DNA from: Devosia sp. Root436
Lineage (GTDB): Bacteria > Pseudomonadota > Alphaproteobacteria > Rhizobiales > Devosiaceae
DNA: 64,000 nucleotides
NCBI RefSeq assembly: GCF_001426345.1
Contig: NZ_LMEM01000010.1
Location: 112,774-176,773 of the forward strand
Reading direction: 5' to 3'
Both the position numbers and the translations under genes were made by a program. Shown here one piece after another: positions 39,691 to 56,067 of this stretch (position 1 is its first letter; every line of letters begins with the position of its first letter). The notes under the pieces are model-generated. The model worked only from the letters and a program-made list of their open reading frames with translations, made no database searches and was not told the DNA's origin.

Positions 39691-40746
<1,056 letters not shown>

Positions 40747-40755
40747 GGAACTCTC

Positions 40756-41841
40756 CTAAGCCGCCCGGAACTGGGCCGGAACCCAGCTTTCGTAGAGCGG
40801 ATGGCCGGGGCCGATGGGCAGGACGACATCCTCGTTGGTTGCCGACGAATGATAGAAGGCGGTGACCAGTTCGAGCGACCGGCGCGAATCCGCCGATGTG
40901 ACCGGCAGCGGGCCGACGCCCGTGAGTGCATCGTGGAAGCGGGCCATCTGCGTCTGGAAGCGCGATGGTACGTGGCTCCAGTCCTTGAGCAGCGCATCGA
41001 TCCTGGCCGCCGTTTCAGGATTGCGCGCCTGGATTTTCCAGGGCTTTTCGCCCGGATTATATGCCGCATGGTCGCTTTCGAAGGTGACATTCTCGAAAGC
41101 TAGGCGAATGCGCGTCGTATCGTCGGCCGAACCCAGCGTCGCCGTGAGGCTGGCCAGTGCGCCATTCTTCATCAGCAACGAGGCCGAGATGGTGTCCTCC
41201 ACCTCGATCGGATTGACGCGGGTGGCGACCCTGCCGAACACACGCTCGATATCGCCCATGAGATAGGTGAACAGGTCATGCGGGTGGATGGCATGGCCCA
41301 TCAGCACGCCGCCCAGCTCGGTGGCCCACTTGCCGCGCCAGGGCACGGCATAATAGGGCGCATCGCGCCGCCACAGCGTTTCCACCGTCCCCATGAAGGG
41401 CTTTCCGGCAATGCCGGCATCGATGATGGCCTTGGCCTGCTCGATGCCGTTGCCGAAGCGATACTGGAACACCGGCATCAGCATGCCGCGGCTCCGCTTT
41501 TCCTCTTCCATCACCGCGTCGACCTGGGCGAGCGAACCCACCAGCGGCTTTTCGCAGATGACATGCTTGCCGGCCTTGAGCGCCGCCATGACCATGGAGA
41601 AATGCAGCCCCGGCGGGGTGCAGATATCGACCACGTCGATATCCTCCATGCCCAGAACGTCCTCGAAGCTGGTGACGCGGCGTTCGACGCCGAATTCGTC
41701 GGCCACCGGGGTCATGCGCTCGACATTGAGGTCGCAGAGCGCCTTGACCTTGAACTTGTCGGCATTGGGCAGGTAGCCCTCCACGATATGGCTGCGGCCG
41801 ATGCCGCAACCGACGACGGCGACGTTGAAAATCGAACTCAT
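40756..41841 (-). CDS. Gfo/Idh/MocA-family oxidoreductase A
   Basis: NAD(P)-dependent sugar or polyol dehydrogenase of 361 residues from the ATG at 41841, which overlaps the next gene's stop (ATGA). The Rossmann part opens FNVAVVGCGIGRSHIVEGYL, and the conserved catalytic-lysine motif is GKHVICEKPLVGS. AIHPHDLFTYLMGDIERVFG is the substrate-side helix of the C-terminal domain. It sits inside a sugar ABC operon, so it probably oxidises the imported sugar or glycoside. Confidence 0.9.
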   Translation of the reverse strand: MSSIFNVAVVGCGIGRSHIVEGYLPNADKFKVKALCDLNVERMTPVADEFGVERRVTSFEDVLGMEDIDVVDICTPPGLHFSMVMAALKAGKHVICEKPLVGSLAQVDAVMEEEKRSRGMLMPVFQYRFGNGIEQAKAIIDAGIAGKPFMGTVETLWRRDAPYYAVPWRGKWATELGGVLMGHAIHPHDLFTYLMGDIERVFGRVATRVNPIEVEDTISASLLMKNGALASLTATLGSADDTTRIRLAFENVTFESDHAAYNPGEKPWKIQARNPETAARIDALLKDWSHVPSRFQTQMARFHDALTGVGPLPVTSADSRRSLELVTAFYHSSATNEDVVLPIGPGHPLYESWVPAQFRAA

Positions 41842-42857
41842 TGCGCCCACTCCGTGCCGCGTTCCGCCAATGTTTGGGCCGTCAGCGCCAGCTTCATGGC
41901 GTTGAAGCACCGCTCCTGCGGCATGGCCGTCTCGGTGCGGTTGCGCACATCGTCCAGGAACTGCCTGCCGAAGGGCCGTTCGACCCTGGAGCAGTCGATG
42001 TGACGCGGGCCTTCATGGTTGACGATGAAAAGGTGGTTTTCGCCGGGCCTTCCGGCAATGTCGATATATTTGCGCAGCTCGATATAGCCCTCGGTGCCCA
42101 GGATGGTCAGGCGCCCGTCGCCCCAGGTCGGCAGTCCCGACGGCGTGAACCAGTCGACGCGGATATAGCCCGATGTATCGGCGGTCCGCAGATGCACGTC
42201 GCCCACATCCTGCAGGCCCGGCCGGTCCGGATTGCCGCGATTGGCGACGCTGGCCGAGACCACTTCGGCATCCATGGCGTTGGAAAAGAACAGATACTGC
42301 TCGAACTGGTGGCTGGCGATATCGCAGAGAATGCCGCCATAACGCTGGCGGTCGAAGAACCACTCCGGCCGCTGGTTGTTGCGGATGGCATGGGGCCCCA
42401 GGCCCACCGTATTGACCACCTTGCCAATGGCGCCCTGGGCAATCAGGTTGCCGGCCTCCACCGTCGCCCGCACCTCGAAATGCTCGGAATAGAGCACCGA
42501 GTAGATGCGGCCCGTTTCCTGCTGCACGCGCCTGAGTTCGTCGAGCTGGGCGAAGGTGGTCATGCCCGGCTTGTCGGTCAGCACGTCCTTGCCGTGCCGC
42601 ATGGCGGCGAGCGAGATCGCGGCGCGATCGGCCGGGATGGCCGAGGTCAGCACCACGGCAATGGAGGCATCCTCCAGGATGGCCCTGGCATCGCCGACAC
42701 GCCTGGCCTCGGGATATTTCGCCCCGAAGGCCGCCGCGAGATCGTCCTCGACGGCATGAAAGGCGACGAACTGGGCGCCGGCATCCTTGAGGCAGTCGAC
42801 CTGGCCGTAGATATGGCTGTGGTTGATGCCGATGGCGGCAAATTTGATATCGGTCAT
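41838..42857 (-). CDS. Gfo/Idh/MocA-family oxidoreductase B
   Basis: Second dehydrogenase of the operon, 339 residues. The N-terminus is atypical: KFAAIGINHSHIYGQVDCLK lacks the full GxGxxG motif of the Rossmann fold. The lysine motif is GKDVLTDKPGMTTFAQLDEL and the helix containing CDIASHQFEQYLFFS provides the His of the C-terminal domain. Two different family members in one operon suggest successive oxidation and reduction at sugar carbons, as known for inositol and 3-keto-glycoside routes. Confidence 0.87.
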   Translation of the reverse strand: MTDIKFAAIGINHSHIYGQVDCLKDAGAQFVAFHAVEDDLAAAFGAKYPEARRVGDARAILEDASIAVVLTSAIPADRAAISLAAMRHGKDVLTDKPGMTTFAQLDELRRVQQETGRIYSVLYSEHFEVRATVEAGNLIAQGAIGKVVNTVGLGPHAIRNNQRPEWFFDRQRYGGILCDIASHQFEQYLFFSNAMDAEVVSASVANRGNPDRPGLQDVGDVHLRTADTSGYIRVDWFTPSGLPTWGDGRLTILGTEGYIELRKYIDIAGRPGENHLFIVNHEGPRHIDCSRVERPFGRQFLDDVRNRTETAMPQERCFNAMKLALTAQTLAERGTEWAQ

Positions 42858-43074: not shown

Positions 43075-43962
43075 TCACCGCTTCATCCCCGTCGTGGCGA
43101 TGCCTTCGATCAGCAGCCGCTGGAAGAACAGGAAGAACAGGAAGATCGGCACGAGGCTCAGCACGCTCATGGCGAAGAGCCCGCCATAATCGCTCTCGCC
43201 CGTGCTGTCGGTGAACGTGCGCAGGCCCAGCATCACCGTGTAGGACTTCATCTCGCTGAGATAGATCAGCGGGCCGAAGAAGTCGTCCCAGGTCCAGATG
43301 AAGGTGAAGATCGCCGCCGTGGCCAGCACCGGCATGGAAAGCGGCATGATGATCTTCCAGTAGATGCGCCAGGGGGAGCAGCCATCCATCTGCGCCGCCT
43401 CGTCCAGCTCCTTGGGCAGGCCGCGGAAGAACTGCACCATGAGGAAGATGAAGAAGCCGTCGGCAGCGAGGAATTTCGGCACGACCAGGGGCAGGAACGT
43501 GTTCACCCAGCCGAGCTGGCGGAACAGCACATATTGCGGGATCAGCGTCACCTGGTAGGGCAGCATCAGCGTCATCAGCATCATGGCGAACCAGAAGCTC
43601 CTGAACCTGAAGTTCAGCCGGGCAAAGGCAAAGGCCGCCATCGAGCAGGCCAGCACGTTGCCGCAGACCGACAGGATCGAGACGATGAAGCTGTTGGTGA
43701 AGAAGGTGCCGAAGCCGGTGCGCAATCCGTTCCAGCCGCGCACATAGGCGTCCAGGCTCCATTCGGAAGGAATGATGCTGGCCGAGGTGAAGATCTCGTT
43801 TTCCGGCCGGAACGAGGCCGCCAGCATCCACAGCAGCGGATAGAGCATGAACACCGACACCGTCAGCAGCGCAGCATGCATCAGCACGGAGACGATCCGG
43901 CGCTGCGTCGGGGTGAGCCGGTTGGCGCCGACCACGGTCAGCTTGGCGGGGGCATCAGTCAT
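43075..43962 (-). CDS. Carbohydrate ABC transporter permease (MalG-like)
   Basis: Inner-membrane permease of 295 residues and six helices. The ATG at 43962 overlaps the first permease's stop by 8 bases. The EAA loop that contacts the ATPase is RGLPKELDEAAQMDGCSPWRIYWKIIMPLS. It forms the channel with the MalF-like subunit. The C-terminal ATTGMKR is typical of the family. Confidence 0.93.
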   Translation of the reverse strand: MTDAPAKLTVVGANRLTPTQRRIVSVLMHAALLTVSVFMLYPLLWMLAASFRPENEIFTSASIIPSEWSLDAYVRGWNGLRTGFGTFFTNSFIVSILSVCGNVLACSMAAFAFARLNFRFRSFWFAMMLMTLMLPYQVTLIPQYVLFRQLGWVNTFLPLVVPKFLAADGFFIFLMVQFFRGLPKELDEAAQMDGCSPWRIYWKIIMPLSMPVLATAAIFTFIWTWDDFFGPLIYLSEMKSYTVMLGLRTFTDSTGESDYGGLFAMSVLSLVPIFLFFLFFQRLLIEGIATTGMKR

Positions 43963-44902
43963 CGTAGTGCACCCAGTATTTGGACGTGAGGAAGGAGAAG
44001 GCCGTGAACAGCCCCACCAGCGCCAGCAGTACCCAGGCCAGCGCCGAGGCATAGCCCATGCGGAAGAAGCCGAAGGCCTCCTGGTAGAGATAGAGCGTGT
44101 AGAACAGCGTCGAATTGATCGGATTGCCGGTACCGCCCGAGATGATGAAGGCCGGCGTGAAGCTCTTGAAGGCCTCGATGGTCTGGATGATGGCGTTGAA
44201 GAACACCACCGGAGTCAGCAGCGGCAGCGTGATCTTGACGAATTGCCGCCACTTGCTGGCGCCGTCGAGGCTGGCCGCCTCATACATGTCCTGCGGAATC
44301 TGGCGCAGGCCGGCCAGGAAGATGATCATGGGCGAGCCGAACTGCCACACCGCCAGGATGATGATGGTCCACAGCGAATATTGCGGCGTCGAAATCCAGC
44401 TCGGGCCCACAATGCCGAAGATGGAGAGGAAATCGTTGACCAGACCCTCGCGGGCGAAGATCTGGCGCCACAGGATGGCGATGGCCACCGACGCGCCGAG
44501 CAGGCTGGGCAGGTAGAACAGCGCCCGGTAGAGCGGCAGGCCCCGCATGCCGCGGTTGAGCAGCATGGCAACGGCCAGCGCGAAGGCAAGCTTGAGCGGC
44601 ACCGAGAAGATGACGAACACCATGGTCACGCGCATCGACGCCAGGAATTTGGGGTCGTTGGTAAACATGCGGACATAGTTGCTGGCGCCCACCCAGTTGG
44701 GGTCGGTCAGCAGGTCGAAGTCGGTGAAGCTGAGATAGAGCGAGGAGATGATCGGCCCGATGGTGAGGCCGAAAAAGCCGATCAGCCAGGGCAGCAGGAA
44801 GAGATAGCCCGGGGCATCGTTCTGCCAGATACGAGCCCAGAGCGAGGGTGAGGCCGCGCGCTCCCTTGCGGGAGCGCCCGATTCCAGGGAGCGCGCGGTC
44901 AT
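43955..44902 (-). CDS. Carbohydrate ABC transporter permease (MalF-like)
   Basis: Inner-membrane permease of 315 residues with six helices after a short cytoplasmic head. YLFLLPWLIGFFGLTIGPII is the first span, and the EAA loop is LRQIPQDMYEAASLDGASKWRQFVKITLPLL. It starts 3 bases after the binding-protein stop codon, consistent with tight co-expression. Confidence 0.93.
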   Translation of the reverse strand: MTARSLESGAPARERAASPSLWARIWQNDAPGYLFLLPWLIGFFGLTIGPIISSLYLSFTDFDLLTDPNWVGASNYVRMFTNDPKFLASMRVTMVFVIFSVPLKLAFALAVAMLLNRGMRGLPLYRALFYLPSLLGASVAIAILWRQIFAREGLVNDFLSIFGIVGPSWISTPQYSLWTIIILAVWQFGSPMIIFLAGLRQIPQDMYEAASLDGASKWRQFVKITLPLLTPVVFFNAIIQTIEAFKSFTPAFIISGGTGNPINSTLFYTLYLYQEAFGFFRMGYASALAWVLLALVGLFTAFSFLTSKYWVHYDD

Positions 44903-44905
44903 GTC

Positions 44906-46195
44906 TTATGCTCGGCTGAGGATTTCGGCAGCGCCGGTAACCAGGTCCTTGCCGGCCTGTTCCGGAGTCTTGGCGCCGAAGCCCACTTCCTGGCCCAGCG
45001 TACGGATCAGGGAGAGATCGACTTCACCGGCAGCGGCCGGCGGCGGCGGGGGCAGCGGGCCAAGCAGGTCGCCCAGGTTGGCCACGAAGTTCAGCGCAAT
45101 CTGGTTGGCCTCGTCCAGGGTCGGCGACACGGCGTCGCGAACCGCGGCGGAGCAGGGAATACCGCGTTCCACGCCCAGGATCTTGCCGGCTTCCACGTCG
45201 TTGACGAAGTAGCTGACAAAATTGGTGGCCGCTTCCTTGTTGGCGGACGAGCCGCCGACCGAGAAGAACATCGAGGGCTTGCGATAGTGACCGCCGCCGA
45301 CGCCCGCGGCGATGCGGGGGTAGCCGACCATGTTGAGCTTGTCCTGCACCAGGGCCTGGTAGCCGACGAGCTGGTTGGAGTTGGACGGCATGAGCGCGGC
45401 CTTGCCCTGGACCAGCATGGTCGATTCCAGCGGGCCGGTATCGAGCGCCTGGTCGTCGGGGGAGACGCAGACGCCCGCTTCGCGCAGCTTGGCCCAGAGC
45501 TGGTACCATTCCACGGCGTCCTGCTCTTCGAAGCCGAGCTTGCCGTCGGCGGTATAGAGCGCCTTGCCGCGCTGGCGCAGCCAGTTGTCGAGCGAGGGCT
45601 CGTTGTAGGACGAGTCCGAGATGGCCTTCATGCCGCCACGGATATTGGCCGAGTTGAAGGCCTCGCCCATGGTCATCAGGTCGTCATAGGTCCAGGCATT
45701 GGTCGGGGCTTCGACGCCGGCTTCTTCGAAGGCAGTGGTATTGACCAGGGTCGCCACCGAGTTGGCGCCCAGCGAAATGCCGTAGAGCTTGCCGTCGACC
45801 TTGCCGCCTTCGAGCTGGTCGGCGTCGAAGTCGTCGAGCTTGAGCACGCCGCCGACGAATTCATCGAGCGGCGCGATGGCGTTGCGCTTGGCGTATTCGA
45901 CGATATAGCGGTAGTCCATCTGGATGATGTCGGGGGCATTGCCGCCGGCCGTCTGGGTGGCCAGCTTGGGCCAGTAGTCGTTCCAGGCGAGGAATTCGCC
46001 CTCGACGGCCCCGCCATTGGCGGCGGTGTAAAGGTCGGTCACGCCATAGGTGCGATCGGCGCGGGCCTGGCCGCCCCAGAAGATCAGCCGCAGGTCGGCG
46101 CCCTGGGCCCAGGCCGGCATCACGCCAGCAGCGCCAGCAGCGACGAGCGCAGACGTGCCCATCAGGAACTGGCGGCGATCGATACGAGTAGTCAT
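44906..46195 (-). CDS. Carbohydrate ABC transporter substrate-binding protein
   Basis: Periplasmic sugar-binding protein of 429 residues (family 1 extracellular solute-binding). The N-terminus TTRIDRRQFLMGTSALVAAG has a twin-arginine signal with cleavage near AWAQ. DLRLIFWGGQARADRT and GNAPDIIQMDYRYIVEYAKR match the fold. The start follows GGGAGGAAAACCTG. It is the first gene of the six-gene operon and two copies of the 16-bp GTAACC-N4-GGTTAC-type site lie upstream. Confidence 0.93.
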   Translation of the reverse strand: MTTRIDRRQFLMGTSALVAAGAAGVMPAWAQGADLRLIFWGGQARADRTYGVTDLYTAANGGAVEGEFLAWNDYWPKLATQTAGGNAPDIIQMDYRYIVEYAKRNAIAPLDEFVGGVLKLDDFDADQLEGGKVDGKLYGISLGANSVATLVNTTAFEEAGVEAPTNAWTYDDLMTMGEAFNSANIRGGMKAISDSSYNEPSLDNWLRQRGKALYTADGKLGFEEQDAVEWYQLWAKLREAGVCVSPDDQALDTGPLESTMLVQGKAALMPSNSNQLVGYQALVQDKLNMVGYPRIAAGVGGGHYRKPSMFFSVGGSSANKEAATNFVSYFVNDVEAGKILGVERGIPCSAAVRDAVSPTLDEANQIALNFVANLGDLLGPLPPPPPAAAGEVDLSLIRTLGQEVGFGAKTPEQAGKDLVTGAAEILSRA

Positions 46196-46270: not shown

Positions 46271-46286
46271 ATCACCAATCGGTTAC
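46271..46286. promoter_or_regulatory. 16-bp palindromic operator-like site 1 (ABC operon)
   Basis: ATCACCAATCGGTTAC, 76 bases upstream of the binding-protein start. It shares the right half GGTTAC and the ACC left half with sites at 46370, 51767 and 52722. Confidence 0.6.
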
Positions 46287-46369
46287 TTCGTCTGTTACGG
46301 TATCGGCAATGGTCACCGAAGCCGCGGGTCGTGCTTTTTGCCCGGAATCTCCCTACGCAAATTGCACAA

Positions 46370-46385
46370 ATAACCGACTGGTTAC
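46370..46385. promoter_or_regulatory. 16-bp palindromic operator-like site 2 (ABC operon)
   Basis: ATAACCGACTGGTTAC: TAACC/GGTTA arms perfect around GACT. It lies 175 bases upstream of the binding-protein start and 99 bases from site 1. The rest of the 464-base gap (46196-46659) contains site 1, a palindrome at 46449 and the LysR site at 46629, and no credible gene. Confidence 0.65.
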
Positions 46386-46448
46386 GACATAGCACACACT
46401 TTTGCGGCAAGGCAATCACTTGTATGGAAGATGCGGAAAGCTGGTGAA

Positions 46449-46464
46449 TTCCCCGATCGGGGAA
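46449..46464. promoter_or_regulatory. 16-bp perfect palindrome in the ABC operon / lysR gap
   Basis: TTCCCCGATCGGGGAA reads identically on both strands. It differs from the GGTTAC-type sites and from the LysR site, so it suggests a third regulator or a compact terminator-like hairpin. Confidence 0.5.
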
Positions 46465-46628
46465 GTGTCCCGCAGAGGCAGATCGCCCCGGATTCCCGCT
46501 GTTTCAGGCCGCCCCCACAGCCGGGACGCGCCGCTCTCCCCTGGCCGTCCGGCGGCCGGTTTTTGTCTTGCTGGTCCTAGACTGGCGCAGTCTCGACCAA
46601 AAGAAAAATACGAAATATCCTGTCCGAT

Positions 46629-46643
46629 ATAGATTTCTTCTAT
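46629..46643. promoter_or_regulatory. LysR-type binding site upstream of the LysR gene
   Basis: ATAGATTTCTTCTAT has 5-5-5 dyad symmetry and fits T-N11-A, the LysR box. It ends 16 bases before the LysR start codon. An overlapping ATATC-N6-GATAT dyad (46615-46630) may be part of the same site. Confidence 0.6.
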
Positions 46644-46659
46644 GTCTTAGGGACACGCC

Positions 46660-47583
46660 ATGGACAAGCTGCTCAACCAGTTCCTCGCCGTGGCCGAGGC
46701 CGGCACGATCAGCGCCGCGGCGACGGCTTTGTTCGTCACCCAGCCGACGCTGACCTTCAACATGCGCAAGCTCGAGGAAAATCTGGGCGTGCCGCTGCTG
46801 ATCCGCACGCCGCGCGGGGTGGAGCTGACCGAATATGGCGAGACGCTCTACCAGAACGGGCGGCTGATGCGCCGGCTCTACGACAATACGCTCAATGCCA
46901 TTGCTCACCAGCGCGGCCGCACCGAGCAGGGCTTGCGCATCGGCTCGGGCTATTCGTGGTGGACCTTGTTCATCCGCGACATGGTGCTCGACTATTCCGC
47001 GAGCTATCCCAATGCGCGCATCCATGTGAGCCTGGGCAACCAGCTGCGCTGCATGGACCAGTTGCTGAGTGGCGACATATCGCTGTTCGTCGCCCATGAA
47101 ATCGAAGGGCTGAGCCGCAGCACCGGGGCCCGGCTGATCCCGCTGACGCGGGTCGGCCAGGGCTATTTCGTGCATGAAGGCCATCCGCTGCTCAGCCGCC
47201 CGCGCTCCATTGCCGAAGTGGAAGCCTATCCCGCCGTGACCAGTTCCTTGCCCGAGATTCGCCATCAGCGCTTCTTCGAGGCCTGGAGCCGCACCACCGG
47301 CGGCAGCGCCCCGTTCGACCAGGGCAAATATGTCTTCGCCTCCAATTCGCTGGCCGCCTGCCTCGATTATGTCGAGCGCACCGATGCGGTGATCGGCCAT
47401 ACCGAAGTGATGGAAGACGAATTCATCCGCCGCGGGCTGCGGCGCATCAGCATCACTGAACCGACACGGCAGAGCCTGATCGGCATCTACGTCCTGCAGG
47501 AGCGCGCCGAAGAGCCCCGCGTGGTGGAACTGATCGAACGCTTGAAGGAAAAGGCCAGCGCGGTGCTGCCGCCGCTGGGATAG
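46660..47583 (+). CDS. LysR-family transcriptional regulator
   Basis: Regulator of 307 residues. The N-terminal helix-turn-helix is LLNQFLAVAEAGTISAAATA and LFVTQPTLTFNMRKLEENLG, with the wing LLIRTPRGVELTEYG. The rest is the periplasmic-binding-like effector domain. It is divergent from the sugar ABC operon across 464 bases, the typical place for its regulator. The sequence SSYPNARIHVSLGNQ is a common effector-domain segment. Effector unknown. Confidence 0.93.
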   Translation: MDKLLNQFLAVAEAGTISAAATALFVTQPTLTFNMRKLEENLGVPLLIRTPRGVELTEYGETLYQNGRLMRRLYDNTLNAIAHQRGRTEQGLRIGSGYSWWTLFIRDMVLDYSASYPNARIHVSLGNQLRCMDQLLSGDISLFVAHEIEGLSRSTGARLIPLTRVGQGYFVHEGHPLLSRPRSIAEVEAYPAVTSSLPEIRHQRFFEAWSRTTGGSAPFDQGKYVFASNSLAACLDYVERTDAVIGHTEVMEDEFIRRGLRRISITEPTRQSLIGIYVLQERAEEPRVVELIERLKEKASAVLPPLG

Positions 47584-47593
47584 GTCTTCTTCC

Positions 47594-47740
47594 CCGCCCC
47601 TTGAGGGAGAGGGGGATTTTTGCGGCGTTCAGCCGGAAAAATCGGGTGAGGGGTGCTGCGCTCGCCCATGCTTCAATGCGGATGGATAACTCGTGACCCC
47701 TCATCCGCCCTTCGGGCACCTTCTCCCTCAAGGGGAGAAG
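47594..47740. repeat. Intergenic palindromic element, family A copy 2
   Basis: Between the convergent LysR and TetR genes. GCCCCTTGAGGGAGAGGG, GGGTGAGGGGTGCTGCGCTC, CCCCTCATCCGCCCTTCGGG and TTCTCCCTCAAGGGGAGAAG repeat the copy at 2945. The stop codon and last codons of the TetR gene lie inside its right arm. Confidence 0.85.
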
Positions 47741-48411
47741 AGGTAGTCCAGCACCATCTGCACCGCCTGCGCCTCGCGCTCCTGCACCATGTCGATGCCG
47801 GACAAATCCCGCGCAAAGATCACCGACAGCGTCGCCATGTTGGACACGTAGAAAAAGCCCAGGGCAGCGATGGAAATATAGAGCTGCACCGGATCGACGT
47901 CGCGGCGGAAAATCTTCAGCTCCGCCCCGCGCTCGACGATGGTGCGGATTTGCCCCACCAGCGGGGAATGCAAGGCCTGGATATCGGGCAGGGTCTTGAG
48001 GAACCGGGCATTTTCGATGTTCTCGGTGCCGAGCAGCCGCGGAAACCACGGATTGGCGAGGAAGTGGCGGAAGGTGAAGCGCACCAGCCGGTCCATGGCA
48101 TCGACCGGGCCGTATTGGTCGAGCGACAGCGCCCGCTCGCCGCGCCTGATCTCCTGATAGGCATCGAGCAAAACCGCCCGGTAGAGGTCTTCCTTGTTGC
48201 CGAAATAGTGGTAGAGCAGCCGTTTATTGGCCCCTGCCAGCGCCGCGATGGCATCCACCCGCGCGCCCTCGAAGCCGCGTTCGGCGAATTCGGCGCGGCC
48301 GGCGACCAGGATCGCCGCCTTGGTCCGGATCGAATTGCGCGCCCGCTTGGCCGGAGCCGCCTCAGCTTTCGGCTGGGGCGGGGCTGCCGCGGGTGAAGAG
48401 GGATCTGACAC
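47728..48411 (-). CDS. TetR-family transcriptional regulator
   Basis: Repressor-type protein of 227 residues. After a Pro/Ala-rich 25-residue head comes the helix-turn-helix: RTKAAILVAGRAEFAERGFE, GARVDAIAALAGANKRLLYHYFGNKEDLYRAVL. The C-terminal ligand domain includes ENIENARFLKTLPDI. It starts 50 bases inside the end of tctA on the same strand, so it is co-transcribed with tctCBA and probably represses that operon. The palindrome type GTAACC-N4-GGTTAC found upstream of tctC and two nearby operons fits a TetR operator. The last residues (FSP-stop) come from the repeat. Confidence 0.92.
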   Translation of the reverse strand: MSDPSSPAAAPPQPKAEAAPAKRARNSIRTKAAILVAGRAEFAERGFEGARVDAIAALAGANKRLLYHYFGNKEDLYRAVLLDAYQEIRRGERALSLDQYGPVDAMDRLVRFTFRHFLANPWFPRLLGTENIENARFLKTLPDIQALHSPLVGQIRTIVERGAELKIFRRDVDPVQLYISIAALGFFYVSNMATLSVIFARDLSGIDMVQEREAQAVQMVLDYLFSP

Positions 48412-49885
48412 GCTTGGATACCGCCGGAATGGACATCAGGATGGTGAAGACGATGATGAGGCAGATAACAGCACTGATCGGACGGGTAAAGAACGGGCTG
48501 GGATCGCCATTGGTCAACAGCAATCCGCGCCGCAGGTTGAGATCGAGCAGGTCGCCCAGCACGATCCCCAGCACCAGTGGCGCCATGGGATATTTCATCT
48601 CGCGCAGGATGAAGCCGACGACGCCGAAAGCCAGCATGACATAGACGTCGAACATGCGCTGGGTGATGGCGAAACTGCCGACCACGCAGAGAATATAGAT
48701 CACCGCCATCAGCCGTTGCCGCGGCACCCGCAGCACCTGGATGAACAGCTTGGTCAGCGACAGCCCGAACACCAGGTTGGCCAGGGTCGCCAGCAGCAGC
48801 ATGGCCACGACCTGGTAGAGGAAGGTGGGGTTCTCCACCATGATCATCGGGCCCGGCCTTATGCCGTGGATATACATGGCCGCGATCAGCACCGCCGCCG
48901 CCGCCGAGCCGGGCAGAGCCAGCGTCAGCGTCGGGATCATCGCCGCCGAGACCACCGCATTGTCGCCGGTTTCCGCCGCGATCAGCCCTTCCTGGCTGCC
49001 CTTGCCGAATTCCTCGGGATGCTTGGATGCCCGCTTGGCCGCGGCATAGGAGGTCCAGGAGCCGACATCCTCGCCCACGCCGGGAATGATGCCGATGAAG
49101 GTGCCGATAATGCCCGAGCGCAGGATGGTCCTCCAATACTGGAAGATTTCGCGGAAGGTCGGCACCACCCGGTCATTGACCGAGGCGACATGCGCCACCG
49201 CGTTGCGCTTCATGGCCGAGAGGATTTCGGAGAGACCGAACGCGCCCACCATGGCCGGGATCAGGTCGATGCCGCCGCCCAAAGCAGGAATGCCGAAGGT
49301 GAAGCGCTGATGGGCATGCAAGGTCTCCATGCCCACCATGGCGACGAGCAGGCCCAGAATGCCGGCAATATAGCCCTTGAGCGGGGTATCGCTGCCGGTC
49401 ATCTGGCCCGAGATCACCACGCCGAACAAAGCCAGCCAGAAGAATTCGTAGGAGCCGAATTTCAGCGCCGCTTCGGCCAGGAATGGCGCGATGATGGCCA
49501 GAAAGAAAATGCCGACCAGCGTGCCCAGGGTGGACGAGGTGGTGGCCAGCCCCATGGCGAGCCCCGCCCGGCCCTGCTGGGCCAGCGGATGCCCGTCGAG
49601 CGTTGCCGCCGCATTGGCGGGCGTGCCGGGAATATTGAGCAGGATGGCGGTGCGGCTGCCGCCATAGATGGCGCCCAGATAGACACACATCAGCGTCAGG
49701 ATCGCCTGGTCGGGCGCCATCTTGTAGGTGAGCGTGACCAGCAGGGCCACGCCCATGGTGGCGGTCAGCCCCGGCAGGATGCCGATGACCACGCCGAGCA
49801 GGGTGGCCCAGACGACGTTGAACAAGGCGGCCGGGGTGAGGAAGTGGCCGATGCCCTGGCCGAGAAGGAGCAGTCCGTCGAACAT
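48362..49885 (-). CDS. tctA: Tripartite tricarboxylate transporter, large permease
   Basis: Large membrane subunit of a TTT transporter (507 residues, about 12 helices). LLLLGQGIGHFLTPAALFNVVWATLLGVVIGILPGLTATMG-type opening is characteristic, together with GAIYGGSRTAILLNIPGTPANAAATLDGHPLA, the conserved substrate/ion region, and GEDVGSWTSYAAAKRASKHPEEFGKG. The ATG at 49885 lies 10 bases after tctB; the longer frame to 50008 overlaps tctB. It works with TctB and periplasmic TctC. Substrates of these systems are mostly carboxylates. Confidence 0.95.
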   Translation of the reverse strand: MFDGLLLLGQGIGHFLTPAALFNVVWATLLGVVIGILPGLTATMGVALLVTLTYKMAPDQAILTLMCVYLGAIYGGSRTAILLNIPGTPANAAATLDGHPLAQQGRAGLAMGLATTSSTLGTLVGIFFLAIIAPFLAEAALKFGSYEFFWLALFGVVISGQMTGSDTPLKGYIAGILGLLVAMVGMETLHAHQRFTFGIPALGGGIDLIPAMVGAFGLSEILSAMKRNAVAHVASVNDRVVPTFREIFQYWRTILRSGIIGTFIGIIPGVGEDVGSWTSYAAAKRASKHPEEFGKGSQEGLIAAETGDNAVVSAAMIPTLTLALPGSAAAAVLIAAMYIHGIRPGPMIMVENPTFLYQVVAMLLLATLANLVFGLSLTKLFIQVLRVPRQRLMAVIYILCVVGSFAITQRMFDVYVMLAFGVVGFILREMKYPMAPLVLGIVLGDLLDLNLRRGLLLTNGDPSPFFTRPISAVICLIIVFTILMSIPAVSKRVRSLFTRGSPAPAES

Positions 49886-49895
49886 GGCTTGCTCC

Positions 49896-50423
49896 TTAGG
49901 GCAGGCGGACGAGGAAGATGCGTTCGAAGACCAGGTAGATGCCCCCGCCGCCCAGCACGGCAATGGCGATGGCCCAGGCCAGCGACGACAGCGGACTGAC
50001 GGGCCCATCGGCCATCCAGATTTCGAAAATCATGATGAAGGCGAAGATGAACAGCATGGCCGCGGCCCAGAAGGGCAGCCAGCCCACCAGGATCAGCGTA
50101 TGCACCAGCGCCAGGCCCAGGATAACCAGCACGCGCATGGCCTGCCGTGTGGTGAAGACCGCAGCGAGCCCCCGCCAGCCGCCCTCGGCCTCGATATGCC
50201 AGGAGCGCCAGGCCAGCAGGGTGCCGCACAAGGTCAGCGCCACCGACAGGATCAGCGGCACCAGCCCCGGAATGGTGGCGGGATGAATATGCCGCGCCTC
50301 GAGACGCGGCATGGTCCAGGACAGGTAGAAAATGGTGAGGCCCAGCGCCACCAGCACGATTGATGTCAACAGATCGGCCCGCGCCCGGACGGCGGTTTCA
50401 TTGGGTTCGGTCGGCACGTCCAT
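49896..50423 (-). CDS. tctB: Tripartite tricarboxylate transporter, small permease
   Basis: Small membrane subunit of 175 residues with four predicted helices (TSIVLVALGLTIFYLSWTMP, IPGLVPLILSVALTLCGTLL, two more near the C-terminus). This fits the TctB family in size and topology, and its place between tctC and tctA is the standard order. Sequence similarity within the family is low, so position carries part of the weight. Confidence 0.9.
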   Translation of the reverse strand: MDVPTEPNETAVRARADLLTSIVLVALGLTIFYLSWTMPRLEARHIHPATIPGLVPLILSVALTLCGTLLAWRSWHIEAEGGWRGLAAVFTTRQAMRVLVILGLALVHTLILVGWLPFWAAAMLFIFAFIMIFEIWMADGPVSPLSSLAWAIAIAVLGGGGIYLVFERIFLVRLP

Positions 50424-50452
50424 GCTGGTCCTCTCGGTAAGGCCACCTCTAT

Positions 50453-50602
50453 CCCTCTCCCCTTGAGGGAGAGGGTGGTTCTTCCGCGTTCAGCGGGAAG
50501 AACCGGGTGAGGGGTCCTGCGTCATCCCATGCTTCAATGGGTGCGGGTAGCGCGACACCCCTCATCCGCCCTTCGGGCACCTTCTCCCTCGAGGGAGAAG
50601 GG
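50453..50602. repeat. Intergenic palindromic element, family A copy 3
   Basis: Inside the tct operon between tctC and tctB. CCCTCTCCCCTTGAGGGAG, GGGTGAGGGGTCCTGCGTC, CCCATGCTTCAATG, CCCCTCATCCGCCCTTCGGG and CTTCTCCCTCGAGGGAGAAG. The CCCATGCTTCAATG block is shared with the copy at 47.6 kb. Confidence 0.85.
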
Positions 50603-50636
50603 AACCGCCACGGACCTTGCGGCCCGTGACTGCAGC

Positions 50637-51674
50637 TTACTTCCCGACTTCCGTCCGCGTCTCGCAGTCGATGCCGATGGTGGACGGATCGTTGACCGCC
50701 TCGCCGCGCGCCACCGACGAGCAGGCTTCCAGGATCGCGACCGGCATGGCCAGCGCGCGGGCCTCGGGCCCATAGGAGGGGGCGAAGACTGCGCCGAAGG
50801 TTTCGGCATAGGTCTTGAGCTCGGGCGAGTTCATCACCTTGTCGGCCCAGATCGCGTCGACCGTCGCCAGCACTTCGGGCGGCGCGTCGGAGGGGATGAA
50901 TATGCCGAAATAGTCGGGAGCCAGTTCCATGTCCGGCAGCCAGTCGGTGATCGGCGGGATCGGGTCGACGCCATCGAGCACCAGCGGGTGGTCGGACAAG
51001 ACGGCCAGGGCCTTGAGGCGGCCGCCGCGGATCAGTTCGGTCTGTTCCACCGCCAGTTGGGTGGTGACCATGGCTTCGCCCGAGGCGGTGGCGATGGCGG
51101 CCGGGCCGCCGCCGTCATAGGTGATCATGTTGTACTGGAAGCCATCGGCCGCGTCGGAAAGCGCCGCAATGGCCGTGCCGCCGGAGGAGGTAATGCCGGC
51201 CGTGGCGACGGTGATGCCCTGCCCGCGGCTCTTGAGCGCTTCGAGCAACTGGCCGAAATCGGTGAATTCGCTGTCGGCCGGCACGCTGACCACGGGCACG
51301 TTGGCGACCGAAAGATAGATGTGCCAGTCGTCGATATCGGTGTCCGCCAGGAGGCCCGAGACATGGTAGGTCGCGTTGTTGGCGATGGCGTTGGCGGTCC
51401 AGGTATAGCCGTCATGGGCGGCGTTGAGCACTTCCTGGGTGCCGATGGCGCCCGAGGCGCCCGGCTGGTTGACCACCACGACCTCGACGCCCAGCGCCTC
51501 GGCCAGGATGGGTGCGGTGACGCGGGTGACCTGGTCGGTCGAGCCGCCAGCACCCCAGGGTACGATCAGGTTGATCGGCCGATCGGGCTTCCACTCCTGC
51601 GCGGCGGCCAAAGATGTGCCCAGCAACAGCGCCGATGCGCCGCCAGCCAGGACAAACAGCAGTCGTCTGTTCAT
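50637..51674 (-). CDS. tctC: Tripartite tricarboxylate transporter, substrate-binding protein
   Basis: Periplasmic TctC/Bug-family receptor of 345 residues from the ATG at 51674. A signal peptide (MNRRLLFVLAGGASALLLGT, cut near LAAAQ) precedes PDRPINLIVPWGAGGSTDQVTRV, the typical Bug start where the loop binds carboxylate. GVEVVVVNQPGASGAIGTQEV is the second diagnostic block. It heads the tctC-tctB-tctA-tetR operon, and a 16-bp operator-like site lies 93 bases upstream. Confidence 0.94.
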   Translation of the reverse strand: MNRRLLFVLAGGASALLLGTSLAAAQEWKPDRPINLIVPWGAGGSTDQVTRVTAPILAEALGVEVVVVNQPGASGAIGTQEVLNAAHDGYTWTANAIANNATYHVSGLLADTDIDDWHIYLSVANVPVVSVPADSEFTDFGQLLEALKSRGQGITVATAGITSSGGTAIAALSDAADGFQYNMITYDGGGPAAIATASGEAMVTTQLAVEQTELIRGGRLKALAVLSDHPLVLDGVDPIPPITDWLPDMELAPDYFGIFIPSDAPPEVLATVDAIWADKVMNSPELKTYAETFGAVFAPSYGPEARALAMPVAILEACSSVARGEAVNDPSTIGIDCETRTEVGK

Positions 51675-51766
51675 CGTGTTCCTCCCTTGGTGCGCGGTGC
51701 CCGGATATTTCCAGTGCCCGCCGCGGGGCAGACTGGGGGGCATTTTCAGCAGAGTCAACCTGTGAA

Positions 51767-51782
51767 GTAACTATCTGGTTAT
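51767..51782. promoter_or_regulatory. 16-bp palindromic operator-like site 3 (tct operon)
   Basis: GTAACTATCTGGTTAT in the tctC / TauE divergent gap, 93 bases upstream of tctC and 112 bases upstream of the TauE gene. It matches the GTAACC-N4-GGTTAC pattern with two changes, one in each half. Confidence 0.55.
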
Positions 51783-51893
51783 CCGCAAACGTTTTCGGTG
51801 CTGGAAGTTTTTCCCGTTGCTGCCAATAGATAGCCATTGCGTTGGCGCGCCAACCGACGCAACCTGAACCGATAGTAGATTTGGGGAACGGGC

Positions 51894-52634
51894 TTGGAAC
51901 CGCAATCGATCGTCATCATGACCCTGGCCCTGACGGCGGGGGCCGTGGTCAAGGGCGCCACCGGCATGGGCCTGCCGCTGGTCGCGCTGCCGGTGCTGAC
52001 AGCCGCCTTCGGCCTGCAGCATGCCGTAGGCCTGATGACCATTCCGCTCATCGTCACCAATGCCTGGCAGGTCTGGCGCTTCCGCGCCGAGGCGGGGTCG
52101 CCGCGCCTCTCCTTCATGCCGCTGTTCCTGGTGGGGGGCGTGGTGGGCATCGGCGTGGGCACCTGGGCGCTGACCAACCTGCCCGAGCGGGTGCTGGTGC
52201 TGACGCTCGGCCTGCTGCTGCTGGCCTATATCGCTTTGCGCCTCGCCACGCCGCATTGGTCGCTCGGCCTGCCTCTGGCCAGGCGCCTGGGGCCGCTGGC
52301 CGGCCTTGGCGGCGGCACCTTGCAGGGCGCAACGGGCATTTCGGCGCCTGTTGGCGTGACCTTCATCCATTCGATGAACCTCGACCGCGATGCCCATGTC
52401 TTCACCGTCTCGACCATGTTCCTCACCTTTGCCGTGGTGCAGCTGCCGGCTTTGTGGGCTGCCGGCGTCATGCGTCCCGAATGGATGCTGCAGGGCGTGC
52501 TGGCGCTGGCCCCCATCCTCGCCTTCATGCCTGTCGGCCACTGGATCAGCGGCAAGCTCAGCCGCAAGGCCTTCGACCGGATGATCCTGGTCTTCCTGGG
52601 CCTCATCGGATTGAAGATGGTGCTGGGACTGTAG
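51894..52634 (+). CDS. TauE/SafE-family sulfite/organosulfonate exporter-like membrane protein
   Basis: Membrane protein of 246 residues with about eight helices. The repeated family motif appears as GAVVKGATGMGLPLVALPVL near the N-terminus and GGGTLQGATGISAPVGVTFI in the second half. Members export small anions such as sulfite or organic acids. The start is TTG at 51894 after GGGGAACGGGC; an ATG eight codons later (51918) is the alternative. It is divergent from tctC and precedes the oxidoreductase-DUF993 operon. Confidence 0.88.
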   Translation: MEPQSIVIMTLALTAGAVVKGATGMGLPLVALPVLTAAFGLQHAVGLMTIPLIVTNAWQVWRFRAEAGSPRLSFMPLFLVGGVVGIGVGTWALTNLPERVLVLTLGLLLLAYIALRLATPHWSLGLPLARRLGPLAGLGGGTLQGATGISAPVGVTFIHSMNLDRDAHVFTVSTMFLTFAVVQLPALWAAGVMRPEWMLQGVLALAPILAFMPVGHWISGKLSRKAFDRMILVFLGLIGLKMVLGL

Positions 52635-52721
52635 GAGGCGCCGTTCAGTCGCCCCAGCAGCCCTCATCCCAAAGTCCTCCACCGATCCCGCTTGACGCCA
52701 TTCCTCATCGCGTATAGCTAA

Positions 52722-52737
52722 GTAACCAATCAGTTAC
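52722..52737. promoter_or_regulatory. 16-bp palindromic operator-like site 4 (oxidoreductase-DUF993 operon)
   Basis: GTAACCAATCAGTTAC, ending 29 bases before the ATG of the oxidoreductase gene, in promoter position. Arms GTAAC/GTTAC are perfect. Confidence 0.65.
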
Positions 52738-52766: not shown

Positions 52767-53918
52767 ATGGCAGACAGGCGGCTCGGACTCATCATGCACG
52801 GGGTCACCGGGCGCATGGGTTACAACCAGCATCTGGTGCGCTCGATCCTGGCGATCCGCGACCAGGGCGGCGTTGTGCTGTCCAACGGCGACCGCCTGGT
52901 GGTGGACCCGATCATCGTCGGCCGCGATGCCGACAAGATCGAGCGCCTGGCCAAAAAGCACGATATCAAGCGCTGGAGCAGCGACCTCGACGCCGCGCTC
53001 GCCAACCCCGACGACACCGTGTTCTTCGATGCCGGCACCACGCTGATGCGGGCCAGCCTGCTGGAACGCGCCTTGGCCGCCGGCAAGCATGTCTATTGCG
53101 AGAAGCCGACTTCCGATTCCCTCGACGTGGCCCTCAACCTCGCCAAGACCGCCCGCGCCTCCGGCCTCAAGCATGGCGTGGTGCAGGACAAGCTGTTTTT
53201 GCCCGGTCTGCTCAAGCTCAAGATGCTCCGCGACTCCGGCTTTTTCGGCAAGATCCTCTCGGTGCGCGGCGAGTTCGGCTATTGGGTCTTCGAGGGCGAC
53301 TGGCAGCCGGCCCAGCGCCCCTCCTGGAATTATCGCAAGGCCGACGGCGGCGGCATCATCCTCGATATGCTCTGCCACTGGCGCTATGTGCTCGACAACC
53401 TGTTCGGCGAAGTGCAGGCCGTGTCCTGCCTGGGCGCCACCCATATCCCCGAGCGCGTCGACGAAAAGGGCGTTCCCTTCAAGGCCGATACGGACGATGC
53501 GGCCTATGCCACCTTCCAGCTCGAAGGCGGTATCGTCGCCCAGATCAATTCCTCCTGGGTCACCCGCGTTCGCCGCGACGATCTCGTCACCTTCCATGTC
53601 GATGGCACGCATGGATCGGCCGTGGCGGGCCTGCACAAATGCTGGAGCCAGCATCGCGTGAACACACCCAAGCCGGTGTGGAATCCCGACCAGCCGCAGA
53701 CCATGAATTTCTTCAACGATTGGGAAGAAGTGCCGGATAACTGGCCGGCGCAGAACGGCTTCAAGGCGCAATGGGAAATGTTCCTGCGCCACGTCGCCGA
53801 GGACGCGCCCTGGGAATATGGCCTCGAAGCCGGCGCCAAGGGCGTGCAGCTGGCCGAACTCGGCCTCAAGAGCTGGGCCGAACGCCGCTGGCTCGACGTG
53901 CCGAAGCTGGAATTCTAG
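52767..53918 (+). CDS. Gfo/Idh/MocA-family oxidoreductase C
   Basis: Dehydrogenase of 383 residues. The ATG at 52767 follows GGGAGGT. The Rossmann start RLGLIMHGVTGRMGYNQHLV is unusual (GVTGRMG, as in dihydrodipicolinate-reductase-like proteins), and the lysine motif is GKHVYCEKPTSDSLDVALNL. GGGIILDMLCHWRYVLDNLF carries the active-site His of the C-terminal domain. It is the first gene of an operon with a DUF993 protein and a sugar isomerase, so it probably starts oxidation of a sugar or sugar acid. Confidence 0.9.
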   Translation: MADRRLGLIMHGVTGRMGYNQHLVRSILAIRDQGGVVLSNGDRLVVDPIIVGRDADKIERLAKKHDIKRWSSDLDAALANPDDTVFFDAGTTLMRASLLERALAAGKHVYCEKPTSDSLDVALNLAKTARASGLKHGVVQDKLFLPGLLKLKMLRDSGFFGKILSVRGEFGYWVFEGDWQPAQRPSWNYRKADGGGIILDMLCHWRYVLDNLFGEVQAVSCLGATHIPERVDEKGVPFKADTDDAAYATFQLEGGIVAQINSSWVTRVRRDDLVTFHVDGTHGSAVAGLHKCWSQHRVNTPKPVWNPDQPQTMNFFNDWEEVPDNWPAQNGFKAQWEMFLRHVAEDAPWEYGLEAGAKGVQLAELGLKSWAERRWLDVPKLEF

Positions 53919-54073: not shown

Positions 54074-55246
54074 ATGCCCACCATCAATCTGCCCAATCCC
54101 GACCGGACCATCACGCTCTATACGCTGACCGGCATCCCGATCCCCTTCGTCAAGCACAAGGCGAGCGACTTCAATCGCATCGCCTATGCCGCCGCCCATG
54201 TCGTGGCTGACCCGCTGGCCAGCAACGATCCCTGGCTCACCCCCGCCATCGATTGGGACACCACCCTCAAATTCCGCCATCGCCTGTGGGATCTCGGCCT
54301 CGGCGTCGCCGAAGCCATGGATACCGCCCAGCGCGGCATGGGCCTGACCTGGACCGAGGCGCAGGAGCTGATCCGCCGCGCCCAGGCCGAAGCCCGCACC
54401 CGTACCGATAGCCTCATCGCCTATGGCGCCGGCACCGATCACCTGGCTCCCGGCCCCGATGTCACCATTGACGACATCATCCGCGCCTATGAGGAGCAGG
54501 TCGGCTTCGTCGAAGCCCAGGGCGGCCGCGTCATTCTCATGGCATCGCGTGCCCTCGCCGCGGCGGCCAGGTCGCCGGACGATTATGCGCGCGTCTATGG
54601 CCGCATCCTGAGCCAGGTGAAGCGGCCTGTGATCATGCACTGGCTGGGCGAGATGTTCGATCCGGCCTTGCAGGGCTATTGGGGCAATATCGACCACGAC
54701 AAGGCGATGGATGTCTGCCTCGACGTCATCGCGGCCAATGCGGGAAATGTCGACGGCATCAAGATTTCGCTGCTGTCGGCGGAGAAGGAAATCGCCATGC
54801 GCCGCCGCCTGCCGGCTTCGGTGAAAATGTACACTGGCGACGACTTCAACTATGCCGAGCTCATCGCCGGCGACGATCAGGGCTATAGCCACGCCCTGCT
54901 CGGCATTTTCGACGCCATTGCGCCAGCCGCCTCGGCCGGGCTCGCGGCACTCGGCAAGGGCAACACACAAGAATTCTTCGACCTGCTCGAACCCACCGTG
55001 CCGCTCAGCCGCCACATCTTCGCGGCGCCGACCCGCTTCTACAAGACGGGCGTGGTATTCCTCGCCTATCTCAACGGGCTGCAGGACCATTTCCAGATGG
55101 TGGGCGGGCAGCAATCGACCCGCTCGGTGCAGCATCTGAGCGAGCTGTTCCGCCTTGCGGATAAAGCCCGAGTCTTGAGTGACCCCGAATTGGCCGTTTC
55201 GCGCATGAATGCGGTGCTCAACGTCAACAGTGTGCGAACCAAATGA
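54074..55246 (+). CDS. DUF993 protein (dihydrodipicolinate-synthase-like aldolase fold)
   Basis: Protein of 390 residues from the ATG at 54074. Segments GAGTDHLAPGPDVTIDDIIRAYEEQVGFVE, GGRVILMASRALAAAA, KRPVIMHWLGEMFDPALQGYWG-type and GNVDGIKISLLSAEKEIAMR match proteins annotated DUF993, distantly related to the DapA/NanA aldolases. The Lys in DGIKIS is a candidate Schiff-base residue. Between a dehydrogenase and an isomerase, cleavage of a keto-sugar-acid intermediate is plausible. It ends in an ATGA overlap with the isomerase gene. Confidence 0.85.
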   Translation: MPTINLPNPDRTITLYTLTGIPIPFVKHKASDFNRIAYAAAHVVADPLASNDPWLTPAIDWDTTLKFRHRLWDLGLGVAEAMDTAQRGMGLTWTEAQELIRRAQAEARTRTDSLIAYGAGTDHLAPGPDVTIDDIIRAYEEQVGFVEAQGGRVILMASRALAAAARSPDDYARVYGRILSQVKRPVIMHWLGEMFDPALQGYWGNIDHDKAMDVCLDVIAANAGNVDGIKISLLSAEKEIAMRRRLPASVKMYTGDDFNYAELIAGDDQGYSHALLGIFDAIAPAASAGLAALGKGNTQEFFDLLEPTVPLSRHIFAAPTRFYKTGVVFLAYLNGLQDHFQMVGGQQSTRSVQHLSELFRLADKARVLSDPELAVSRMNAVLNVNSVRTK

Positions 55247-56067
55247 CCCAACGTGCTATCTCGCTGAACCTGGCCACGACGCGCCAGGTCTGGGGCTTTG
55301 CCGAAGCCGTGGATGGGTGCCTGCGGGCCGGCATCACCGGCATTTCGCCCTGGCGCGACCAGATCGCGGCCATCGGTCTCGACGAGGCGGCGCGCATCGT
55401 CAAGGCCAACGGGTTGCAGGTCACCGGCGTCTGCCGCGGCGGCATGTTCCCGGCGGAAACGGCCGCCGGGCGGCAGGCCAATATCGATGATAACCTGCGC
55501 GCCATCGACGAAGCGGCGGCGCTCAATGCCGATTGCATCGTGCTGGTAGTGGGCGGATTGCCGGGCAGTTCCAGGGACTTGCCGGGCGCCCGCCAGATGG
55601 TGACCGATGGCATTGCCGCCATGCTGCCGCATGCCCGCGCCTCGGGGATAAAGATCGCCATCGAGCCGCTGCATCCCATGTATGCCGCCGACCGGGCCTG
55701 CGTGAACACCATCGACCAGGCGCTCGACATCTGCGAGACGCTGGGCGAAACCGTCGGCGTCGCCGTCGACGTCTATCATGTCTGGTGGGATCCGCGGCTG
55801 GCCCAGGCCATTGCCCGCGCCGGCCGCATGAAGCGCATTTTCGCCCACCACATCTGCGACTGGCTGGTCCCGACCAGGGACATGCTGCTCGACCGCGGCA
55901 TGATGGGCGACGGCGTCATCGACCTCCCCGCGATCCGCAAAATGATCGAGGATGCAGGCTTTTTCGGGCCCCAGGAGGTCGAGATTTTCAGCCAGGACAA
56001 TTGGTGGAAGCGCCCCGGCGACGAGGTTCTCGCCACCATCAAGGAGCGCGTGGCCACAGTGTGCTAG
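55243..56067 (+). CDS. Sugar phosphate isomerase/epimerase (xylose-isomerase-like TIM barrel)
   Basis: TIM-barrel protein of 274 residues of the AP-endonuclease-2 superfamily. Likely metal ligands are Glu in KIAIEPLHPMYAADR, Asp and His in VAVDVYHVWWDP, His in IFAHHICDW and Glu in PQEVEIFSQ. Relatives include hydroxypyruvate isomerase, tagatose epimerase and keto-glycoside lyases. It is translationally coupled to the DUF993 gene. Confidence 0.9.
   Translation: MTQRAISLNLATTRQVWGFAEAVDGCLRAGITGISPWRDQIAAIGLDEAARIVKANGLQVTGVCRGGMFPAETAAGRQANIDDNLRAIDEAAALNADCIVLVVGGLPGSSRDLPGARQMVTDGIAAMLPHARASGIKIAIEPLHPMYAADRACVNTIDQALDICETLGETVGVAVDVYHVWWDPRLAQAIARAGRMKRIFAHHICDWLVPTRDMLLDRGMMGDGVIDLPAIRKMIEDAGFFGPQEVEIFSQDNWWKRPGDEVLATIKERVATVC

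Follow-up and report, generated by a model that had tools for sequence, protein, structure and literature searches.

The 16-bp palindrome GTAACY-N4-RGTTAC, which occurs four times in a 64,000-nt stretch of the Devosia sp. Root436 genome (contig NZ_LMEM01000010.1; this whole stretch is called the window here), is very probably the operator of the TetR-family regulator encoded at 47728-48411. On comparative sequence grounds, this TetR is predicted to repress three transcription units and to be released from them by a metabolite. The units are an operon for a sugar-type ABC importer that begins with the gene of its solute-binding protein (SBP), the tctCBA genes of a tripartite tricarboxylate transporter, and an operon formed by the oxidoreductase gene gfoC, a DUF993 gene and an isomerase-like gene (iso).

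An earlier reading of the window, made from the sequence only, had described four sites of the type GTAACC-N4-GGTTAC, and all four were found on the + strand exactly as stated:

46271..46286, no strand assigned: sugar-ABC operon, proximal operator, ATCACCAATCGGTTAC
46370..46385, no strand assigned: sugar-ABC operon, distal operator, ATAACCGACTGGTTAC
51767..51782, no strand assigned: operator of the divergent region between tctC and tauE, GTAACTATCTGGTTAT
52722..52737, no strand assigned: operator of the gfoC-DUF993-isomerase operon, GTAACCAATCAGTTAC
47728..48411, minus strand: tetR, RutR-like TetR-family regulator (PF00440 and PF17938)

The start codon is 75 and 174 bp away at the SBP gene, 92 bp at tctC and 29 bp at gfoC, whose start was taken at 52767, which bears out the proposed placement upstream of the three operons. 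A palindromic operator both near the regulator's own gene and at the target promoters is a feature of TetR-family systems that the sequence of this locus displays. Furthermore, the same site is not only present at three operons but also kept at their orthologous promoters, as described below.

TetR-family matches at an E value of 0.001 were obtained in 58 of 61 genomes, the orthologs in 34 same-genus relatives being 73-98% identical to the window protein, and five Devosia loci (L187-L191, with L188 from D. psychrophila) encode proteins that are 91-95% identical. We read loci of 16-19 kb from the 34 same-genus tetR relatives and from three same-genus genomes that were found through gfoC. A perfect GTAACY-N4-RGTTAC was located within 150 bp upstream of gfoC in all 37 same-genus loci outside the window, while 359 rearranged palindromes used as a control averaged 0.08 loci, the largest value being 28. 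When the SBP operon is linked to tetR, its promoter has a site with at most two mismatches in 21 of 21 loci (16 of them perfect), and tctC has one in 21 of 21 same-genus loci under the same threshold, with 11 at one mismatch or less and 1 perfect. No site with up to one mismatch was detected at the internal gene starts (perm1, gfoB, gfoA, ugpC, DUF993, iso, tctA and tctB; 17-37 loci each), and tauE has a site in 12 of 23 loci because it shares one intergenic region with tctC. In the 31 SBP promoters of the genus, the proximal site is found at about -87 to -93 in most cases, and the distal one at about -163 to -192 in most of those that bear lysR; the distal site is absent in L050, L071, L072 and four loci without lysR, and in these last four a single site is left at about -90. 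Conservation at orthologous promoters, which the sequence-only reading had put forward as a check of the regulon, was therefore observed at gfoC, tctC and SBP.

The sites also accompany their genes when these are rearranged. In genome G015 (L059) the ABC operon is inverted and both of its sites have moved along with it. A scan of 121 genomes of the family with the motif alone gave further perfect sites and, of 20 regions picked among the matches listed, 10 correspond to the SBP operon at places not covered by the tetR loci already read; nine of these operons are separated from tetR or gfoC by at least 25 kb or lie on a different contig, and the tenth (L172) is about 10 kb away, beyond gfoC. 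The remaining regions are two already known members and eight that are something else, seven of them with the match inside open reading frames; no regulon member was present in the L166 region. As the 20 regions had been picked by the motif, the converse test was made with an SBP protein search in 12 genomes, namely eight without an SBP gene in the 18.7-kb tetR locus, G013 (in which it is linked) and three without the TetR. SBP orthologs found in this way, by protein and not by motif, were preceded by a two-site promoter in the eight genomes in which SBP lies outside the tetR locus: seven have a perfect distal site and a proximal site with one mismatch, and one has two sites with two mismatches each. 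No site was found at the five scored of seven paralogous SBP matches, the tandem paralogs L293 and L296 having been left out of the scoring with the ortholog beside them taken. Three same-genus genomes without the TetR (G446, G441 and G036) have neither an SBP ortholog nor a site of the conserved type, as G441 and G036 gave no site match and the two matches in G446 are off-type at position 7; a fourth such genome, G016, is 62% complete and was left out of this comparison. Among four more genomes of the family, G433 and G380 lack both TetR and site, G387 has a 38% identical TetR and no site, and G399 has a 42% identical TetR and perfect sites. The fact that the palindromes are kept before the same genes even after these have moved apart suggests that the neighbouring TetR is likely to switch all three sets together.

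The protein itself matches the TetR_N domain PF00440 with 57.2 bits (cut-off 24), and its AlphaFold model has a mean predicted local distance difference test score (pLDDT) of 91, with helices at residues 27-49, 52-59 and 63-70 (the third helix) and so on. The top Foldseek matches of the model are TetR-family proteins, the best PDB fold being RutR (E 1.5e-8, 23% identity). In agreement with this, the RutR profile of NCBIfam matches the window TetR over residues 22-222; unlike RutR, however, the protein fails the curated model TIGR03613 (49.9 bits against a cut-off of 368), and there are no rut pyrimidine genes at the locus, the kept neighbours being gfoC-DUF993-iso, tctCBA and the sugar-ABC operon. 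The consensus operator of RutR differs from GTAACY-N4-RGTTAC. According to the parts of one publication available to us, the operator of RutR, the pyrimidine regulator of Escherichia coli, is a palindrome about 16 bp long, and a DNA contact is reported for the RutR residue Lys52, with which helix 3 starts (PMC10891134). An operator length of about 16 bp is thus common to RutR and the window system. Lys63 of the window TetR presumably corresponds to Lys52 of RutR.

The tetR gene overlapping tctA had been pointed out as the most likely source of the regulator, with the LysR protein as the alternative. Our comparison favours TetR as the putative reader because the sites are retained where lysR is absent and because the operator type tracks the recognition helix of TetR, though not significantly on a tree (see below). 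LysR was rejected as the common reader. It is very unlikely that LysR (46660-47583) reads the palindromes while TetR does something else: lysR does adjoin the SBP operon in divergent orientation in the window, and in 8 of 9 loci the SBP ortholog has it as a neighbour, but 18 of the 34 same-genus tetR loci have no lysR match and keep the gfoC site, the four SBP promoters without lysR all retain a site, and the loci of Rhizobium, Ensifer, Agrobacterium and Aureimonas gave no lysR match above 45% among the matches listed. Even less probable is that an unlinked second TetR paralog reads these sites and the local TetR has another operator. Most genomes do encode several weaker TetR homologs, and paralogs with 44-47% identity are found beside other transporter loci, three of the four with tct genes; nevertheless, these paralog loci (L077-L080) have no perfect site, the closest being a match with one mismatch in L078 about 7 kb from the regulator, and the site adjoins the local tetR in many arrangements, including families in which only tetR and gfoC are adjacent.

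With regard to promoter geometry, the window gfoC promoter has a -10-like TAGCTA at 52715-52720, one base before the operator, and a TTGACG at 52692-52697; counting the window, 36 of the 38 genus loci have a TTGAC 30-31 nt ahead of the point where the operator starts. A TTGAC is also present 28-31 nt before the proximal SBP site in 17 of 31 promoters, the corresponding box in the window being GTGACC. As the gfoC operator starts one base past the -10-like box, a bound dimer would cover the start region, and the position of the operators relative to the promoter boxes makes repression the natural reading at gfoC and SBP. We propose that a TetR dimer binds the palindromes through its third helix (residues 63-70) and would thereby block RNA polymerase at the gfoC and ABC promoters, until a pathway metabolite releases it and the three transcription units are derepressed. 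Because tetR overlaps tctA by 50 bp, it is probably cotranscribed with tctCBA, and this would allow autoregulation through the tctC site. Induction would then raise, at the same time, the Gfo/Idh/MocA-DUF993-isomerase enzymes, the sugar-type ABC importer and the TctABC importer for carboxylates, a combination that fits a single route for the uptake of a sugar or glycoside and its oxidised acid form.

Upstream of the SBP operators there is a second conserved box at 46419-46430 (CTTGTATGGAAG on the + strand, CTTCCATACAAG on the SBP strand), which is kept in 30 of 31 genus SBP promoters, including the four without lysR. We take this box to resemble the TTGTATACAA operators of GntR-type regulators, a likeness according to which another regulator may act at the SBP promoter.

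The link between operator and recognition helix was analysed in 149 loci with a gfoC match above 55%, a TetR match above 36% and a readable helix. Of the 105 gfoC-linked loci whose TetR has the helix NKR[LM][LI]YHY, 94 have a perfect site close by, against 5 of the 44 with other helices; once the proteins are clustered at 70% TetR identity, the figures are 12 of 13 against 4 of 16 clusters (Fisher p 0.0005). The 11 loci with the YHY helix and no site all belong to family f19, and all 11 carry the pattern at another place in the locus (perfect in 6, with one mismatch in 5), outside the scored stretches and, in L148, overlapping the 5' end of an ABC permease frame. Among the five sites with other helices, that of L129 rests on a doubtful TetR match, and one helix read-out used wrong TetR frames for L129 and L155. 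Loci with other helices revealed other operator types, which were recognized by promoter alignment, so that the loci used here to describe them are the very ones that brought them to light. In those with an SKP helix, TTACYTACTAGTYRGTAA is found upstream of tctC in 5 of 6 aligned loci, with another palindrome in place of ACTAGT in the SKP-helix locus L152, and where the helix is ANKRMLYYHV (family f35) TTATCC-N4-GGTTAA or a near form follows tetR in 10 of 11 loci. When other families were searched for palindromes with 6-bp arms, the known type was returned in f17. Genome G399 has a perfect GTAAC site adjoining its 42% identical TetR, which has the helix NKRMIYHY. We tentatively suggest that the TetR proteins encoded with gfoC-DUF993 form a natural specificity series in which helix and operator have been swapped together, the window operator acting as a roadblock at two promoters and lying close to the -35 box at the third. 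The composition of this series is proposed with equal reserve: it may comprise at least three pairs, namely NKR[LM][LI]YHY with GTAACY-N4-RGTTAC, ANKRMLYYHV with TTATCC-N4-GGTTAA, and SKP[ML]IY with TTACYTACTAGTYRGTAA, which has a longer half-site spacing.

Two further observations were made in these genomes. G399 (L278, L280) gave no strong gfoC match and has two perfect sites, separated by about 10.8 kb, of which one precedes an unrelated-looking gene; the same operator could possibly serve a different regulon there. A perfect GTGAGT-N4-ACTCAC is present in 8 of 11 f35 loci (e.g., L155 and L159), where it lies downstream of gfoC at about 4-10 kb from the start of this gene, and is possibly the operator of another regulator.

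Outside the genus, the loci of Rhizobium, Ensifer, Sinorhizobium, Agrobacterium and Aureimonas have a common order in which a leftward ABC operon is followed by a site, a rightward tetR, a second site and a rightward gfoC. The TetR of Sinorhizobium meliloti Ak57 shares 50% identity with the window protein across 189 residues and is flanked on both sides by a perfect site (L267, 8053 and 8927), and SMc04134 of S. meliloti is likely the counterpart of the window TetR by gene order. SMc04134 appears among the transcription factors of a predicted network, in the part of that study we could draw on (PMC11387232), and no description of its regulon or operator was found in the open literature, although RhizoBindingSites or RegPrecise may hold a prediction. 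By order and annotation, SMc04132 is the DUF993 gene, SMc04133 is gfoC, SMc04135 encodes the SBP and SMc04138 and SMc04139 encode oxidoreductases, so that these genes lie on both sides of SMc04134. According to the material available from a proteomics study, the five proteins belong to one module (Table 2 of PMC12542648) and have log2 values in TY of -1.69, -3.65, -1.23, -1.31 and -1.07, respectively, in a phbC phaR strain relative to phbC (PMC12542648).

Two side observations concern the gene content of these loci. A mandelate-racemase-like gene that is not in the window operon is found inside the S. meliloti DUF993 operon (L267, 11321-12736), and a similar-looking frame is present in L148 (family f19). 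According to the translations, the gfoC-DUF993-isomerase genes of L148 follow a different ABC transporter, and the importer may therefore be replaceable, with the enzymes being kept.

Several points weigh against the proposal that TetR controls the three units through this palindrome. First, when three mismatches are allowed, the pattern has 9 matches against 7.4 expected in 64 kb, i.e., chance level, and genome-wide it is no commoner than a reversed control (22 vs 40, at one mismatch or less). The case cannot therefore rest on window counts, and these would be in line with the sites being chance or structural palindromes such as transcription terminators or repeats. This idea is nevertheless hardly credible, being contradicted by the conservation of the sites, the relocated operon, the fixed spacing to promoter boxes and the absence of sites at internal starts. 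In fact, the only window matches with one or two mismatches are the four sites, all inside 6.5 kb and before the named operons. RTAACY-N4-RGTTAY with at most one mismatch occurs at 22 places in the whole 3.9-Mb genome, 4 of which are the window sites, and taking the other 18 as background the probability of four in 6.5 kb is about 3e-8, a hand estimate to be used as a guide only because the pattern was chosen after the sites were seen. A weight matrix trained only on the relatives' sites (113 sites) gave scores of 24.3, 22.2, 21.0 and 19.7 to the four window sites and 16.3 to the best of the other 18. Seventeen of these 18 lie within open frames of at least 159 aa and one within a frame of 106 aa, which is weak evidence, since G+C-rich DNA is rich in open frames and two of the window sites (46271 and 51767) also fall in such frames (107 and 141 aa). 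The sequence-only reading had asked whether similar matches are found in unrelated intergenic DNA; on these scores and, to a lesser degree, on their location, the 18 were rejected as further regulon members in this genome. Among these 18, for example, the translations place the matches in L001, L008 and L009 inside recG-like, dihydroorotase-like and dprA-like genes, respectively.

Other points on the same side concern the breadth of the system. Among 54 gfoC genes from beyond the genus, no more than 20 are accompanied by a site (at most two mismatches within 200 bp), which is perfect in 17 cases, and in some families other palindromes, or none, were found. A perfect site is also close to gfoC in L133 and L136, where the stretch read, which in L136 ends at the contig end, gave no TetR match. 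In a TetR tree built without the helix, the link between helix and operator gives only four independent contrasts, about two in the expected direction (2.5 under a looser score that accepts a perfect site anywhere in the locus) and none opposite, and the sign test is not significant. As for S. meliloti, the assignment of SMc numbers to genes relied on their order and annotation and not on sequence, and the available parts of the proteomics study indicate that the module holds many unrelated genes and that the proteins were undetected in low phosphate (PMC12542648). As far as can be judged from these parts, the S. meliloti data are a co-variation in another species and an effect of phaR, not of tetR.

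Finally, the tctC promoter differs from the other two. The sequence-only reading had placed the three operons alike under one site, and all of them do keep sites, but that of tctC is the weakest, being degenerate in most relatives (1 perfect out of 21), and its layout departs from a classical roadblock in that the operator is just upstream of a conserved -35-like box. In all 22 loci, the window among them, the operator is followed on the tctC strand by a TTGAC whose first base is 20-24 nt from that of the operator, so that the operator ends a few bases before this box with a rigid spacing opposite to that of gfoC. This arrangement could mean that TetR represses gfoC and SBP but activates tctC, or modulates it without a roadblock, an explanation we regard as less likely, as the f40 and f21 relatives have a different tctC palindrome downstream of TTGACA, the usual position for a repressor.

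The remaining genes of the locus are the following:

39688..40746, minus strand: ABC ATPase, UgpC-like (open reading frame; UgpC name from the S. meliloti counterpart annotation)
40756..41841, minus strand: gfoA, Gfo/Idh/MocA enzyme (Pfam)
41838..42857, minus strand: gfoB, Gfo/Idh/MocA enzyme (Pfam)
43075..44902, minus strand: two ABC permeases (open reading frames, synteny, S. meliloti counterpart annotation)
44906..46195, minus strand: ABC solute-binding protein, gene 1 of the sugar-ABC operon (PF13416/PF01547)
46660..47583, plus strand: lysR (PF00126/PF03466), rejected as reader of all the sites; its action may be limited to the ABC promoter
48362..49885, minus strand: tctA, membrane subunit of the tripartite tricarboxylate transporter (open reading frame, tblastn conservation)
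49896..50423, minus strand: tctB (open reading frame, synteny)
50637..51674, minus strand: tctC, solute-binding protein (PF03401)
51894..52634, plus strand: tauE-like exporter gene, divergent from tctC (PF01925)
52767..53918, plus strand: gfoC, Gfo/Idh/MocA oxidoreductase (Pfam; closest PDB chain 3oqb, 'Oxidoreductase')
54074..55246, plus strand: DUF993 protein (PF06187; sole PDB match 4dnh, 'Uncharacterized protein')
55243..56067, plus strand: xylose-isomerase-like TIM barrel (PF01261)

A Pfam scan of ten proteins (TetR, LysR, SBP, the three Gfo/Idh/MocA proteins, TctC, TauE, DUF993 and the xylose-isomerase-like barrel) agreed with the gene identities proposed from the sequence alone; tauE, which is divergent from tctC and shares the site with it, was missing from that list. 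The name of tctA comes from the same source and from the tctB-tctC context, and its start codon was chosen within a longer frame. The PDB matches 3oqb (gfoC) and 4dnh (DUF993) are nearly full-length and their labels carry no function; no paper on 'DUF993' or 'PF06187' was found in the open literature, and neither this nor the PDB provided a substrate lead. The three gene sets look like an uptake and breakdown route for a compound that is likely sugar-derived. In L071 (G025) and L193 gfoC was recovered in two tblastn pieces, G025 having no full gfoC match, which is probably due to a broken gene or an assembly error. The tetR-tctA-tctB genes are flanked by a 117-nt repeat, 82% identical between its copies (47618-47734 and 50479-50595), and near tetR there is also an inverted pair at 47583-47613/47719-47749.

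Classical repressors of the TetR/TetA type bind short palindromic operators by the regulator gene, over the promoter, and control neighbouring transporters or enzymes, as stated in the accessible sections of PMC3511530. The window system resembles them in having short palindromes beside the regulator gene and transporters and enzymes as neighbours, and differs from them in comprising three units. Two of these are importers, and the sites of one importer operon are retained even where it is tens of kilobases away from tetR. A local repressor circuit of the TetR family is thus a known kind of system, whereas the regulon deduced here by sequence comparison, its breadth and the variation of its operator seem to be new: searches of the open literature with DUF993, PF06187, SMc04129-04139 and TetR regulon, regulon databases being outside their scope, returned no description of it, so that this is apparently a widespread regulon that has gone undescribed so far. 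Loosely annotated genes, such as those for the DUF993 protein and the oxidoreductase, would in this way become parts of one regulated unit in Devosia, Rhizobium, Sinorhizobium, Agrobacterium and others, and the prediction follows that two different importers and enzymes of the gfoC/DUF993 type serve one substrate. A short list of promoters and one sequence are gained for testing, and the related TetR-operator pairs may provide a set for reading the DNA specificity of the TetR family.

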